DNA of 64,000 nucleotides. It comes from Mariniblastus fucicola. GTDB lineage: Bacteria; Planctomycetota; Planctomycetia; Pirellulales; Pirellulaceae. The stretch spans positions 868,001 to 932,000 of the forward strand of contig NZ_CP042912.1 of the NCBI RefSeq assembly GCF_008087665.1, read 5' to 3'. The notes beneath the pieces were generated by a model. It did no database searches, was not told where the DNA came from, and worked only from the letters and a program-made list of their open reading frames with translations. This document shows positions 3,901 through 9,896 of the stretch, in pieces (positions within the stretch are counted from its first letter, which is position 1; each line of letters opens with the position of its first letter). A program made the translations under genes and the position numbers.

Positions 3901-6042
3901 CTATCGTCGGAAAATGTTCTTGAACGACCAACGTTTCGTCGAGCGTTTCGGCAGCGTCAAGTTGCTGCTCCGCGACGGTCGACGCTGCGAAGAGTCGAGC
4001 AATCCGGGGCTTGAGTCCAGGGAACGCGGCGTCGCGTTGGAATCTGGCGTCGAGTTGAACTCAGGTTCCTGCAGCAACTCCTTCAGGCTCTTGATTCTCA
4101 GTTCGTCATCCGGATTTGTTTCCAGATCGCCCGGTAGTGCGTCGTCGATCAATTCCGAGTTTGGACGCGGAGGGTCGAGGTCTTCAAGATTGAACGCCGA
4201 ATCGGAATTGGTTGGCGATTCGTTGTACCGATCGGTGGCTCCATCGATTCGTAGAGCCTTCGGATAGGCCCGCGACGGACGTTGAACGCCGACCAAAGTC
4301 GGAGCAATCGATCCGTAGCGTTCTTCCACAAAACGAATTCCGTGCGTTTCGAGGATTGAACCCGTTTGGGATTCGACGTTTGCCAGTTCGGTGTTGTACT
4401 GCGTGATCGAACGGGCTTCCTGAGAAATCGCGTTTCCCCAATCCGTAATCGCGGTCAGCACGTTGATTACTTCCCGACGACCTTCAAAAACTTCAGCGGC
4501 CTGATTGTTGTAGCTGATTCTGGCGGCCTCTCTGGCTTCCCGGAACGCTTCAATTTGAAGATAGAACTGGTCAAGGTTTCGATAGTTGATCGTCAACTGG
4601 TGCACCATTTGATGGATGCCCTGTTCCAAATTCTTGCGGTCTTGCAGCAGAATCAGTTCCCTGCGTCGCAAAGCCGCGCGATCGCCTCGCAGGCCAAACG
4701 GAACCGCGAAGTTGACGCCCAGATTGAAGCCCGCGAATCGACCGCCATCGTTTTCCAAAAAGTTTCCGTTGGGCATTTCGCCACTCAGGCCGTCCCAACG
4801 ATAGTTTGCGATTCCGTCGAATTGCGGCCGCGCCGAGTTGTCGGCCAGGCGAAGCTGTTGCTGGTCGGCTTCGAGGATAAGTTTCAATTCGATAATGTCG
4901 GGGCGATGTTCTTCGGCGATCGCAACGATTTCATTCCAATTAAAATCGATCTGTTCCAGAACCGGAACCGAAGTCGGCACGATGACGCTTCCGCTCGACG
5001 GTGGCAGTCCCATCACATTTCGCAGTGCCGTTTCAGCCAAAATCAAGCTCGAACGCGCGGTGATCAGACTGGCGCGAAAGTTCGCCAGCGAAGAACGGGC
5101 CTGAGCCACATCGGCGGCGACGGCCAAGTCGGCATCTTTTCTGGCTTGGGCTCTTTCGAAAGCAAACTTCGCCTGTTCAATCTGCTGCTTCCGAGCCCAA
5201 ACTTCGACTCGGGCCGCAACCAGATTCCAGTATCCGGCGATGACGCTACGAACGAGTTCCTGAACTGAATTCTTGAATTGAAAGTACGATCGCTCTGTGT
5301 TGATGCGAGCAACAATGACGGGCGTCAGATTCGCGTCGCGGCCATAGCCTTTCGCAAAAGGCTGCCGCAATGTGATTTCCGCAAAGGAACGATACTGCGG
5401 TTCAAGCGGAAAGACGCCGGGTTCAAAATAGGATCCGATCGCGTTCGCATTGAATCCCACAGTGGCTCCGTTGTGGGTTCGTTTTTGCAGGTTCAGCGTT
5501 GTGTTAATTGAGTCCGTGCTGGAGCCCGTAAGAATTGCTCCTGTCGGATCGAGAGGATCGAAGATTGCCGCCGGGCTGTCAGACTTGTTCATCGTTGACT
5601 GAAAGTTCAGCGTCGGATCAAAGACGGCGAGTTGCTCATCGATCGAAGCGTTCGAGATCGCCACATCGTAAATGGTACGACCTGTCGTGGACGCTGAAAC
5701 ACCGCTGAGAACCCGGACGACGTCTGCGTTGCGAATCGCAATTTGGATCGCATCGTCCAGTGACAACGGTTCTGCCATGCGATCTTCTTCGAGTGCAACG
5801 GTGAATGGGACGTCAGCGTTGGCGATGTCGAACGCGCAAAGTGCACCCGGATCGCGAACTGCGATGTGACGTTGCTCAGGACAGATGTCGATCAGTTGGG
5901 CGTTTGCCGTATCCGTAACGAAAACGGCGAATATAAATACAAGCATGAAGCTCAAGCGATTGATTGCGTCCGCGATGTGCAGGCTCACTCGCTTGCGCGT
6001 CGTGCTGGTATTTGGTTTGGGGTTCGCTGCGATCATCGTCAT
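3901..6042 (-). CDS. TolC-family outer membrane efflux protein
   Basis: Predicted trimeric outer-membrane channel of the TolC/OEP family (713 aa). Seen: a signal peptide with hydrophobic core LSFMLVFIFAVFV and likely cleavage at TANA-QL (about residue 48); two repeated helical/strand halves, one around EPLSLDDAIQIAIRNADVV and one around VAADVAQARSSLANFRASLITA; and alternating coiled-coil segments such as RREVINVLTAI. The last ~120 residues are a low-complexity Ser/Pro/Asp-rich tail ending in a basic segment (RSTKRWSFKNIFRR), absent from classical TolC and probably periplasmic. It lies 90 bp downstream of the ABC ATPase at 6133-6864 and probably shares its transcript, suggesting one efflux unit, but no permease or adaptor gene is adjacent. 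Start is uncertain between ATG 6042 and ATG 6036. Confidence 0.88.
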   Translation of the reverse strand: MTMIAANPKPNTSTTRKRVSLHIADAINRLSFMLVFIFAVFVTDTANAQLIDICPEQRHIAVRDPGALCAFDIANADVPFTVALEEDRMAEPLSLDDAIQIAIRNADVVRVLSGVSASTTGRTIYDVAISNASIDEQLAVFDPTLNFQSTMNKSDSPAAIFDPLDPTGAILTGSSTDSINTTLNLQKRTHNGATVGFNANAIGSYFEPGVFPLEPQYRSFAEITLRQPFAKGYGRDANLTPVIVARINTERSYFQFKNSVQELVRSVIAGYWNLVAARVEVWARKQQIEQAKFAFERAQARKDADLAVAADVAQARSSLANFRASLITARSSLILAETALRNVMGLPPSSGSVIVPTSVPVLEQIDFNWNEIVAIAEEHRPDIIELKLILEADQQQLRLADNSARPQFDGIANYRWDGLSGEMPNGNFLENDGGRFAGFNLGVNFAVPFGLRGDRAALRRRELILLQDRKNLEQGIHQMVHQLTINYRNLDQFYLQIEAFREAREAARISYNNQAAEVFEGRREVINVLTAITDWGNAISQEARSITQYNTELANVESQTGSILETHGIRFVEERYGSIAPTLVGVQRPSRAYPKALRIDGATDRYNESPTNSDSAFNLEDLDPPRPNSELIDDALPGDLETNPDDELRIKSLKELLQEPEFNSTPDSNATPRSLDSSPGLLDSSQRRPSRSSNLTLPKRSTKRWSFKNIFRR

Positions 6043-6132: not shown

Positions 6133-6864
6133 TTACTCGTCGACGGGGTAGGAATGTAACGATTCGAGCGCTTCGCTAAAGTTTTCCGTGTCGCAAACGA
6201 CATTGCCGTCCCGCAAAACGATCGTGCGGCGGGCGTTGCGAGCGACTTCCTGATCATGCGTTACCAGAATGATGGTCAGCTTGCGTTCTTCGTTCAACTT
6301 CTCCAGCAGCTCGATCACTTCGCGGCTGGTTTTGGTGTCAAGATTTCCGGTCGGCTCATCGCCCATCAAAATCGGAGGCTCGTTTACCAAAGCTCTCGCA
6401 ATCGCCACGCGTTGCTGTTGGCCTCCGGAAAGCTGTGCCGGATGATGGTCCAGACGATCGCCGAGTCCGACCAGGCCCAGCAGTTCACGAGCTTTCTCAC
6501 GTCGCTGTCTGGGAGTGACTCCTTTGGAATAAAGCAGCGGAAGTTCGACGTTCTCCTCGGCCGACGTCCGCGAAAGCAGGTTGAAGTTCTGAAACACGAA
6601 GCCCAGTTTCTTGTTTCGAATGTGAGCCCGTTGGTCGAGCGTCATGTCGACGACTTCTTCGCCGTCAAGAATGTAGCTGCCGGTGGTTGGGCGATCGAGG
6701 CAGCCCAGCGTGTTCATCAAAGTTGACTTGCCGGATCCGGAGGGGCCGATCAGGGCGACGTACTCGCCCTGTTCGATGTTCAGCGTCGTTTGTCGCAGTG
6801 CGTGGACTTTGACCTCGCCCAAATCGTAGGTTTTGCTGACGTCGTTGAGTTCAATAAGTGCCAA
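6133..6864 (-). CDS. ABC transporter ATP-binding protein, MacB/LolD type
   Basis: ATPase subunit (243 aa) of a type VII/MacB-LolD-like ABC system, which normally drives efflux or lipoprotein release through FtsX-like permeases. Seen: Walker [10 protein letters not shown] (residues 40-48), Q-loop FQNFNLL, signature LSGGQ (145-149), Walker B ILMGDE (165-170), D-loop GNLD and switch His203 (VTHD). All catalytic elements are intact. It is first of two genes with the tolC-like gene downstream, and is divergent from the lipoprotein nuclease at 6980. The expected FtsX-type permease and periplasmic adaptor are missing from both sides, so they must be encoded elsewhere or the ATPase is used by a distant transporter. 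The ATG start sits at the proper distance before the conserved [11 protein letters not shown]. Confidence 0.95.
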
Positions 6865-6979: not shown

Positions 6980-7912
6980 ATGACTAAATCCAGAATAATT
7001 CTGTTCTTAACGCTGCTGGCGGCCGCTGTTTCCGGCTGTGATCCGGTCGAAACGCCACCCAGTCCGCGCCCCGATCCAGCGCCGACTGTCGTCAAATCGC
7101 CGGTTGAAATACTGGCGGAGGAATCTGTCGCGCCGACAGTTTCGCCGCCTGCTGAAACGACGCCCGACATTGCATCCGGGACCAGCGAGTTTGATCGCTC
7201 GCCGGCGGTGGATTCGTTTTTGGAAAAGTTCGACATGCTTTCGGAGCAAGGTTTCGTGCCGACGCTTCGCCGTGGGTCAACCGGGATCGGGTATACGCTG
7301 GAAACCATGTTGGGTATTGAAGAAAACAACTCGCCCGGCGGGGACTATATGGGCATGGAGCTGAAAGCATTTCGGGATGACGATCTGACGATGAACGATT
7401 CCGAAAAAATGAATCTGTTTCTCAAGGAACCGAAGTGGACGGATGGGTTGAAGTCAGCAGATCGCGTTCGAAACTATGGCTACGTAGATGACAACGGCAG
7501 AACGGCACTCTATTCGACGGTCACGATCGACATGAGTTCGCACAAATTTGCTTTCGAGGTCGAAGGCGATTCGTCGAAAGTCTGGCTGACGTTCGATGGA
7601 TCGCGGATCGCGTTCTGGACTCGTGAAATTCTCGCCAAACGGTTGAAGGAAAAGCACACCGAAACTGTTTTCGTTTCAGCTCATAGTCGCGGGAAAGGAA
7701 AGGCTGAGGAGTTTCACTACTATGGCGTGACGTGGTGTCGCGAGCCATCGGTCGATGAGTTCATCAAGCTTTTGCGCAAGGGCGACGTGATGCTGGAACT
7801 GAGAATGCACTTGAAGGAATCCGGTGCAGTACGAAATCATGGCAGCTGTTTTCGGATCAAGCAAAATCGGATCCGGGATCTGTTTCGCTACGCTATCCAG
7901 GTGCGTCCGTAG
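6980..7912 (+). CDS. Lipoprotein with MvaI/BcnI-type restriction endonuclease domain
   Basis: Predicted exported lipoprotein (310 aa) carrying a PD-(D/E)XK nuclease domain of the MvaI/BcnI family. Seen: signal peptide RIILFLTLLAAAVSGC with lipobox VSGC (Cys20); a Pro/Thr/Ala-rich linker (21-75); then the nuclease core with RRGSTGIGYTLETMLGIEEN (97-116), Asp122 and E127-L-K129. Glu108, Asp122, Glu127 and Lys129 have the same spacing as the active site of MvaI as I recall it (E36, D50, E55, K57). The C-terminal part contains RNHGSCFRI, also typical of the family. No DNA methyltransferase is adjacent, which argues against a classical restriction-modification pair; an envelope-anchored DNase acting on incoming or environmental DNA is an inference. 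It is divergent from the ABC/TolC genes. Confidence 0.85.
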   Translation: MTKSRIILFLTLLAAAVSGCDPVETPPSPRPDPAPTVVKSPVEILAEESVAPTVSPPAETTPDIASGTSEFDRSPAVDSFLEKFDMLSEQGFVPTLRRGSTGIGYTLETMLGIEENNSPGGDYMGMELKAFRDDDLTMNDSEKMNLFLKEPKWTDGLKSADRVRNYGYVDDNGRTALYSTVTIDMSSHKFAFEVEGDSSKVWLTFDGSRIAFWTREILAKRLKEKHTETVFVSAHSRGKGKAEEFHYYGVTWCREPSVDEFIKLLRKGDVMLELRMHLKESGAVRNHGSCFRIKQNRIRDLFRYAIQVRP

Positions 7913-8042: not shown

Positions 8043-9896
8043 CTAAGAATTCACCACGTCGCAATACGGATCCTGGCCCATTTCTATGTGCCGTTCCTGT
8101 CGTTCCTTGTCCTGTTTCAGCAGGATCATTCGGTCGACCAAATGTTTTCGCTCGAGTCGTCGTTGAGCAAGCTGGAAATGGCGAAAAACCTTTGGGTTGA
8201 CGCTGCCTTTCTTCGGCAGCGAAGAGTACTTGCGCCGCAGTCGACCCGTCCTTCCCGGACCAAGTCCCTGGAGCAAAACATCGTCGTCCATCGAAACAAA
8301 GATGCGAAAACTGCCAGGCTGACCCTGCCGCGAACCGCGTCCGACAAGCTGCCAATCGATGCGTTGGCTTTCGTGGACTTCCGATAAAATCACGTGCAAT
8401 CCGCCGGCCTGTTTGACTTTGGGAGCAAGAATGAAATCCGTGCCACGGCCCGCCATGTTGGTCGCCACGGTGACTTTCCCGGCTTCACCGGACGCCTTGA
8501 TGATCTCCGCTTCGCGTTCAAGTTGATTGGCGTTGAGGACTTCATGGTCGATGCCGCGATCGCTTAGCAGCCTCGAAAGCAACTCAGACGTTTCGACACT
8601 GCGAGTCCCAATGAGAACCGCACGAGAAGCGTTCGTCATCTCGACTGTTTCCGCAACGATGGCTTCAAACTTTGAGTCCAAATCAGCGAATATTTTTGAG
8701 GCCAATTTCTTTCGAATGACCGGTCGATGCGTCGGCACGACAACCGTTTTTTTCTTGTAGACCTTCTTGAACTCGCGTGAACTCGTTTCCACCGTGCCCG
8801 ACATCCCGCCAAAGCTCTCGTACAATCGAAAGAAAGTCTGCATTGTTACCGTTGCCCCGGAACCCACATTCGGTGTGACCTCAAGCTTCTCCTTGGCTTC
8901 GACAGATTGATGGATGCCGCGTTGCCACTGTCGTCCTTCAGCGATCCGGCCGGTGAATTCGTCAATGATCGCGACCTTGCCCTCCCGAATCGTGTAGTGC
9001 TGATCCAGTTGGAAGTCGCGACGAACTTTGATTGCGTTTTCAATGTACTCGTAGAGCTTGCGAATCGGAACTCGTCGCGTTCCTTCATTCTGCGGCAAGC
9101 CTCGAAGTCGCTGAATACCGCCTGGCTTGAGTTCAACTTTTTTCTTGTCATGCTGATAGTGGAAGTCGCGTTCCTCGATAAACTGCGGCGCGTTTTCGGC
9201 TGCCCAACGAAAGCAAAGCTCTGTCAACTTTTGTTCTTCCGGATCGGTGATGCCAATGATCAACGGTGTCCGGGCTTCATCGATCAGGATGCTGTCGACC
9301 TCATCCACGAGGACATAGTTGAGCTCGCGATGCAGCAGCTGAGAACGAGTCTGTCCGGAAGAAAGCGACAGGCGATCGCGGAGGAAGTCGAAACCGAATT
9401 CTTTGGCTGTTCCGTAAGTAACATCTTTCCGATAGGCCCGTTTTCGCTCCGTCGGTTCGGTGTCGCTGGTGACCACGCCGGAAGAAAGTCCCAGCGTTCT
9501 GAAAACGGGTTCAAGTAGTTTGTGGTCTCGACTGGCGAGGTAATCATTCACCGTCACGACGTGCGAGCCGCGGCCGGACAAAGCGTGCAAGTACGCGGGC
9601 ATGGTCGCGGTCAGCGTTTTGCCTTCGCCAGTTTTCATTTCGGCAACGCGGCCTTTCGCGATCTGCATCGCCGCGAAGATTTGCATGTCGTACGGGACCA
9701 TGTCCAGGGATCGGCGGATCGCTTCGATCACCAGCGGGAATGCTTCTGGAATCAACTTGTCGATCGCAGTCCCGATCGAAGCACGATACTTCAGCGACAG
9801 CCCGGCTTCGCGTAGCTTCTCCGCAGATACGTCGGCGAGCGGTTTTGCTTTCCGGCGAATCTTCTGGACGAGCGAAAATTCGAGGGCGCGATTCAA
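8043..9896 (-). CDS. Short SecA-like translocase ATPase (SecA paralogue)
   Basis: SecA-family motor ATPase of 617 aa, against roughly 850-1,000 for housekeeping SecA. Seen: Walker A MKTGEGKT (87-94), the substrate cross-linking region (about 215-350), Walker B DEVDSILIDEARTPL (DEVD at 198-201), and the second nucleotide-binding fold with NMAGRGTDF and GRGSRQGQPGS. After this the protein keeps only a remnant of the scaffold helix (AQRRLERKHLVDRM) and ends at GQDPYCDVVNS, so the helical wing, most of the scaffold and the Cys-rich SecB-binding tail are absent. Start: TTG at 9894-9896 is the first possible start after an in-frame TGA about 18 bp upstream. It is last in a minus-strand run. It may be an accessory SecA handling special substrates (inference), and is not the main secA. 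Confidence 0.88.
   Translation of the reverse strand: MNRALEFSLVQKIRRKAKPLADVSAEKLREAGLSLKYRASIGTAIDKLIPEAFPLVIEAIRRSLDMVPYDMQIFAAMQIAKGRVAEMKTGEGKTLTATMPAYLHALSGRGSHVVTVNDYLASRDHKLLEPVFRTLGLSSGVVTSDTEPTERKRAYRKDVTYGTAKEFGFDFLRDRLSLSSGQTRSQLLHRELNYVLVDEVDSILIDEARTPLIIGITDPEEQKLTELCFRWAAENAPQFIEERDFHYQHDKKKVELKPGGIQRLRGLPQNEGTRRVPIRKLYEYIENAIKVRRDFQLDQHYTIREGKVAIIDEFTGRIAEGRQWQRGIHQSVEAKEKLEVTPNVGSGATVTMQTFFRLYESFGGMSGTVETSSREFKKVYKKKTVVVPTHRPVIRKKLASKIFADLDSKFEAIVAETVEMTNASRAVLIGTRSVETSELLSRLLSDRGIDHEVLNANQLEREAEIIKASGEAGKVTVATNMAGRGTDFILAPKVKQAGGLHVILSEVHESQRIDWQLVGRGSRQGQPGSFRIFVSMDDDVLLQGLGPGRTGRLRRKYSSLPKKGSVNPKVFRHFQLAQRRLERKHLVDRMILLKQDKERQERHIEMGQDPYCDVVNS

Follow-up and report, generated by a model that had tools for sequence, protein, structure and literature searches.

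A predicted envelope-anchored MvaI-type endonuclease in Mariniblastus fucicola and an unlinked Dcm-like methyltransferase as its possible partner

The nuclease gene and its product

The window, which is the whole 64,000-nucleotide stretch of Mariniblastus fucicola DNA that was analysed (NZ_CP042912.1, positions 868,001 to 932,000), contains a gene whose product combines a putative lipoprotein signal, a linker and a nuclease domain (Table 1). It is adjoined by genes for an outer-membrane efflux protein (3901-6042, minus strand) and an ABC transporter ATPase (6133-6864, minus strand), both of which are also present in the congeneric genome G016. Directly downstream, on the opposite strand, lies a gene for a 617 amino acid SecA-like protein (8043-9896, minus strand), again common to G016; this protein has SecA DEAD, P-loop and preprotein-binding domains and is possibly a second, short SecA. 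In total, neighbouring genes are common to M. fucicola and G016 (L023) and to the pair L033/L034, and one further family occurs in three loci. A conserved operon partner was considered and rejected, no neighbourhood being shared beyond close relatives.

Table 1. Features of the predicted exported nuclease gene (positions in the window)
Feature	Position	Strand	Remarks and basis
Predicted exported MvaI/BcnI-type nuclease, whole gene	6980..7912	+	310 aa plus stop, ATG start; Pfam PF15515
Putative signal peptide (residues 1-19) and lipid-attachment Cys20	6980..7039	+	sequence; lipobox in 5/5 genus members
Lipobox VSGC, residues 17-20	7028-7039	+	sequence
Linker, residues 21-73, Pro/Glu/Ser/Thr-rich	7040..7198	+	low model confidence (AlphaFold2)
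Nuclease domain, residues 74-310, predicted MvaI-type PD-(D/E)XK fold	7199..7909	+	Pfam, PDB alignment, AlphaFold2, fold match
E108 codon	7301..7303	+	ORF translation, phmmer alignment, conservation
D122 codon	7343..7345	+	ORF translation, phmmer alignment, conservation
E127-x-K129 codons	7358..7366	+	ORF translation, phmmer alignment, conservation

By sequence, modelled fold and active site the product is a member of the MvaI/BcnI family, and DNA cleavage is predicted. PF15515 covers profile positions 1-227 of 227 with 154 bits (cut-off 25, E=6.7e-45); a search with this family found one gene in the M. fucicola genome and none in 14 control genomes. Sequence matches in the PDB were R.MvaI (E=1e-13) and R.BcnI (E=8e-4). 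The AlphaFold2 model, built from 26 sequences, has a mean pLDDT of 85, with 218 of the 310 residues at 90 or above, nearly all of them in the domain. Its best fold match is DNA-bound R.MvaI (E=1.5e-19), R.BcnI being matched with E=4.4e-16; all six PDB matches with E of 0.001 or less are MvaI or BcnI, and the next is MutH (0.035). The model thus has the PD-(D/E)XK fold implied by the first-pass annotation, which had also named E108, D122 and E127-x-K129 as an MvaI/BcnI-type active site. These residues stand where they were placed, and phmmer aligns all four with acidic and lysine residues of R.MvaI which we take to be its catalytic residues; D122, E127 and K129 are likewise aligned with the corresponding residues of R.BcnI. 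No tolerance of replacement is seen at the four positions, which are invariant in 16/16 intact exported relatives. Between M. fucicola and G016 the nuclease domain has a dN of about 0.09 and a dS of about 2 (near saturation), which indicates purifying selection.

R.MvaI (PDB accession numbers 2oa9 and 2oaa; CCWGG) shares with the window protein its catalytic domain, fold and active-site residues. MvaI is not known to have an export signal and is part of a Type II restriction-modification (R-M) system; the window protein carries a predicted lipoprotein signal followed by a linker, and its gene is not linked to a methyltransferase gene. R.BcnI (PDB accession numbers 2odh and 2odi; CCSGG) is of the same fold and family, but the window protein has Leu and Cys in alignment with BcnI His77 and His219, presumably the readers of the central base pair, and in this is nearer to MvaI. 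Viral contigs searched with peptide patterns yielded no relative of the nuclease, and a viral origin was set aside, only one of 50,697 phage records being matched, at 27% identity.

Export signals among the relatives

The lipobox VSGC at Cys20, reported in the first-pass annotation, is present, and the protein begins as bacterial lipoproteins do, with a hydrophobic signal peptide followed by the lipobox cysteine. Taken alone this lipobox is a weak signal, and the Pfam profile LPAM_1 does not reach its threshold (10.6 bits, cut-off 20, E=0.9). All five genus members with the nuclease (M. fucicola, G006, G015, G016 and G021) have a hydrophobic stretch followed by a lipobox; the background for both features by the same crude test is 6/231 long ORFs in 400 kb of the M. 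fucicola genome. The residue right after the lipid-attachment cysteine is Asp in M. fucicola and G016, Arg in G015 and G021, and Trp in G006; in E. coli, Asp in this position is an inner-membrane retention signal. Both the length and the sequence of the linker differ among relatives.

Whether a protein was classed as exported depended on the start codon chosen for it, on visual inspection and on a hydropathy score. PF15515 was detected in 6 of the 60 genomes of a sample of relatives (M. fucicola included), five of which, M. fucicola among them, show lipoprotein N-termini; the sixth (G029) has a conventional R-M system in which the methyltransferase, of N4/N6 type, is linked to the nuclease. 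A scan of a species-genome collection revealed 31 loci, 14 with export signals (L023-L035 and L039, the last with its nuclease gene broken in two frames) and 17 without them or not assignable. By record title, 12 of the 14 are planctomycete, one (L027) is Verrucomicrobiales and one (L031) is only 'bacterium', which was placed in family f21. The nuclease of L027, a MAG, is 62% identical to that of the window and clusters with the nucleases of the window's genus (support 0.974), so that transfer or mis-binning is possible. The record of another locus (L041) is titled Bifidobacterium breve; it belongs to an environmental-looking MAG series and its title is probably wrong.

The hydrophobic stretch scores at least 1.9 in 16 of 17 exported N-termini and 1.53 in the remaining one (G720), and six of the 17 fit the lipobox pattern. 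Eight of nine non-exported N-termini are without such a stretch, the exception (G325, 2.15) arising via a doubtful upstream start. A FastTree tree of the nuclease domain unites the exported members (support 0.988); their group joins one of conventional enzymes with a support of only 0.632, and several of these conventional enzymes adjoin C5 methyltransferases. Lipoprotein forms, which the first-pass annotation had proposed to look for in other planctomycetes, occur in 5/5 genus members (M. fucicola included), with Sec-type signals in more distant planctomycetes and in one Verrucomicrobiales MAG, and export signals recur through the clade although the N-terminal sequence diverges. The window nuclease therefore appears, from its sequence, to be a lipoprotein situated outside the cytoplasmic membrane. 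The first-pass interpretation is supported as regards the lipoprotein signal, the intact active-site residues, the lack of a linked methyltransferase and an unusual use of the MvaI/BcnI family.

Among the 20 exported nuclease copies, four are either interrupted by stops or frame changes or reduced to remnants: G672 (L137), G749 (L138), G766 (L136, L139 and L039) and G800 (L128). All four are MAGs, and they still have an unbroken gene for a Dcm-like methyltransferase of the kind described below.

Linked and unlinked methyltransferases

Queries for C5, N4 and N6 enzymes revealed no linked methyltransferase at any of the 14 exported loci (flanks short on one side in several), compared with matches of these types at 14 of 24 non-exported loci. 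The window is without PF01555 or PF00145 matches. Since linkage of a methyltransferase to the endonuclease gene, on which a Type II assignment depends, was tested and not found, the window nuclease does not qualify as a Type II R-M system of the standard kind; it may still act like one across the membrane.

A profile search of the entire genome for these two families found two PF01555 proteins and one PF00145 protein, the latter encoded about 0.96 Mb from the nuclease gene. The earlier statement that a methyltransferase is missing here holds for the locus; elsewhere on the chromosome there is a C5 candidate. This PF00145 protein reaches 319 bits against the dcm superfamily model (cut-off 101); against PRK10458 its 413 bits fall short of the cut-off of 710. 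In the PDB it is matched best by 3lx6 and 3me5, titled 'cytosine-specific methyltransferase', which we assume to be Dcm. Its target-recognition region closely resembles that of E. coli K-12 Dcm, the target of which is given as CCWGG in the excerpted text of PMC10305163. The comparison with EcoRII/Dcm (CCWGG) ends there, as an EcoRII-type gene is lacking in 19/20 exported-nuclease genomes. No recognisable restriction gene lies within about 1.4 kb of the M. fucicola Dcm-like gene.

All samples together, 19 of the 20 genomes with an exported nuclease carry a Dcm-like C5 methyltransferase, the sole exception being G778 (89% complete); for the genomes behind the exported loci of the relatives and species-collection searches the figure is 15/16 distinct genomes, M. 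fucicola included. Among the 60 relatives, M. fucicola included, Dcm-like genes occur in 5/5 nuclease genomes versus 4/55 others (Fisher p=2e-5), among 397 genomes of the class in 12/13 versus 23/384 (p=4e-13) and among 170 genomes of family f21 in 13/14 versus 29/156 (p=3e-8), although these samples overlap and share ancestry, for which no correction was made, and the p-values are not independent tests. With broken nucleases dropped, the f21 figures become 9/10 versus 29/156 (p=6e-6), and by genus 7/7 nuclease genera versus 15/58 overall (p=2e-5). Left out of the counts were G029 and G563, which have linked R-M systems, and G687 and G832, whose enzymes are of a divergent, non-exported type; the four broken or remnant copies were retained in the main counts. 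Genomes reached by two routes (identical coordinates and E-values) were counted once, and weaker Dcm matches (36-41% identity, E >1e-60; G037, G040 and G044) were not scored. The proposal that the nuclease would have no need for self-methylation is not borne out by this excess over background. The association is asymmetric, Dcm-like genes often being found without the nuclease and the nuclease without a Dcm-like gene once, which is the pattern expected of R and M. Two Dcm lineages occur inside one nuclease clade, separating G760 from its nuclease sister G825, and M. fucicola, G015 and G016 from G006 and G021.

EcoRII-type genes were sought in 56 genomes and found in six, of which one (G006) has an exported nuclease and five fall among the 33 that have a Dcm-like gene and lack an exported nuclease. 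EcoRII was rejected as a general reason for the Dcm-like genes, as it accounts for 1/20 exported-nuclease genomes. The gene beside the Dcm-like gene is EcoRII-type in G006 and MvaI-type in G453 (Verrucomicrobiales-titled); 15 other exported-nuclease genomes have no EcoRII-, MvaI- or Vsr-type gene beside it (about 1.5 kb per side, less at contig ends). EcoRII-C is absent genome-wide from G672 and G749, in which PF15515 occurs only on a contig other than that of the Dcm-like gene.

Linked R-M systems in which a PF15515 enzyme is paired with a Dcm-like methyltransferase are present in Sagittula (p8), Celeribacter (pP73D) and Marinibacterium (pLA6_010), and in the planctomycetes G563 and G832. Their PF15515 enzymes differ from that of the window in belonging to a distant branch, in apparently not being exported and in being linked. 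The pairs were seen at L134 and L145 (G563), L170 (G832) and, on alphaproteobacterial plasmids, L182, L184 and L185; the enzymes have about 180 extra N-terminal residues, and L182 and L184 include a Vsr-type gene. Since a Dcm-like gene accompanies 19/20 exported nucleases and linked Dcm pairs exist in the family, the window protein looks, from these sequence comparisons, less like a plain DNase than like a restriction enzyme that has been relocated beyond the cytoplasmic membrane.

Site specificity and possible function

Three lines point to CCWGG, none of them decisive: the non-histidine residues at the two BcnI positions, a B3-like domain in relatives and the candidate partner methyltransferase. 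The domain in question, of about 190 residues and without a Pfam match, lies between signal and nuclease in the exported proteins of L029-L032. A model of it from four sequences (pLDDT 72) gave five PDB hits with E of 0.001 or less, namely the UbaLAI and EcoRII B3 domains (E=3e-5 to 2e-4); no support for B3 identity was found at the sequence level. Both UbaLAI and EcoRII are CCWGG enzymes, the former a monomeric Type IIE enzyme with an MvaI-like catalytic domain (B3 domain, PDB accession number 5o63) which, to our knowledge, has not been described as exported. With export signal, B3-like domain and MvaI domain in succession, L029-L032 resemble a secreted UbaLAI-like layout, as far as the model goes; the window protein differs in having no N-terminal B3 effector domain, a low-confidence linker standing there.

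Nine plasmid regions around close Dcm-like relatives were collected, and in the eight that were scanned the neighbouring endonuclease was PF15515 (three) or EcoRII (five). The PF15515 enzymes of such linked pairs with Dcm-like genes are only remotely related to the exported clade and do not share the residues conserved at its C-terminus, which speaks against the pairing. R.MvaI itself is listed, in the excerpted text of PMC10305163, as cutting CCWGG regardless of cytosine methylation; a Dcm-like mark might therefore not protect, a second point against the pairing. The observed/expected ratio of CCWGG is 0.78 in M. fucicola, 0.77 in G365, 0.87 in G720 and 0.88 in G800 (all with the nuclease), compared with 0.87-0.97 in four genomes with neither gene, and with 0.97 and 0.61 in two genomes whose Dcm-like gene is linked to one of EcoRII type. 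Depletion being inconsistent between genomes, CCWGG avoidance was discarded as a footprint and is not counted as support; the CTWGG enrichment expected from 5mC deamination is absent in the four nuclease genomes (0.77-0.86).

The reading that we prefer, tentatively and at a little under an even chance, is that of a restriction nuclease anchored in the envelope and probably specific for CCWGG, which would act on the outside while the unlinked Dcm-like enzyme marks self DNA within the cell. The predicted lipoprotein would be exported, and its flexible linker would tether an MvaI-type endonuclease, active as a monomer, on the far side of the cytoplasmic membrane, where it would probably still recognise CCWGG-like sites and, like MvaI, cut the two strands singly. 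The cell's own CCWGG sites would probably be marked in the cytoplasm by the Dcm-like C5 methyltransferase from its separate chromosomal locus; this would keep self DNA safe from the nuclease before export and spare kin DNA outside. Unmarked DNA at the envelope, whether phage DNA under injection, DNA in uptake or environmental DNA, would be cut. The two halves of this R-M pair would be separated by the membrane, and their genes would not be linked. It is possible, if somewhat doubtful, that in such a pair, split by membrane and chromosome, methylation serves as a label of self and kin by which phage and environmental DNA is filtered before entry. Besides the points already raised against the pairing, the preferred reading has to contend with the nuclease genome G778, which has no Dcm-like gene, with an N4-type methyltransferase in all five nuclease genomes of the genus and with the four broken or remnant nuclease copies.

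Alternatively, and closer to the first-pass annotation, the protein may be a DNase anchored in the membrane that serves nutrition or the turnover of eDNA and does not require methylation, the Dcm-like gene being there for other reasons or through shared ancestry. The export signals, the lack of a linked methyltransferase, the indifference of MvaI to CCWGG methylation noted above and a gene neighbourhood not conserved beyond close relatives all agree with this, but we consider it unlikely, because the Dcm-like association holds for family, class and genus alike, an enzyme that cuts only at specific sites would serve digestion poorly, and the B3-like domain modelled in four relatives suggests that sequence recognition is retained. 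An exported nuclease might also cut any DNA with its site outside, the Dcm-like enzyme being only an antidote to nuclease molecules that fail to be exported. The same Dcm association would then be seen, and the nuclease is made in the cytoplasm; since Sec substrates are exported unfolded, however, its activity there should be low, and this explanation seems improbable.

That the cognate methyltransferase in the genus is instead a solitary N4-type enzyme (1464566-1465324 of the M. fucicola genome, L063) strikes us as decidedly improbable. Orthologues 78-87% identical occur in 5/5 nuclease-bearing genus genomes (only nuclease-bearing members being compared), and the enzyme shares 32% identity with the N4-type methyltransferase to which the PF15515 nuclease of G029 is linked. 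Against this, nuclease genomes G365 and G402 have no close relative of it (24% identity), and its plasmid relatives adjoin proteins without a PF15515 match in 4/4 cases examined. These plasmid relatives (L302-L305) are up to 60% identical to it; the adjoining proteins lack any Pfam match and are possibly restriction enzymes of an unknown kind. Finally, a spurious N-terminal signal or a decaying gene, leaving a cytoplasmic or inactive R-M remnant, would fit the LPAM_1 score, the assignment of signals by eye and hydropathy rather than by a trained predictor and the 4/20 broken copies, but is very improbable given signals that recur across the clade despite N-terminal divergence and are missing from 8/9 non-exported relatives, purifying selection and catalytic residues that do not vary among intact copies.

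Restriction enzymes are generally assumed to work inside the cytoplasm, together with their methyltransferase, and in the open-access literature, a scope that leaves most subscription papers and preprints outside, we found no report of an exported restriction endonuclease. If the envelope-anchored restriction nuclease proposed here is real, discrimination between self and non-self DNA would be placed at the cell envelope, and there would be a testable reason why planctomycetes keep Dcm-like genes without a linked restriction gene.
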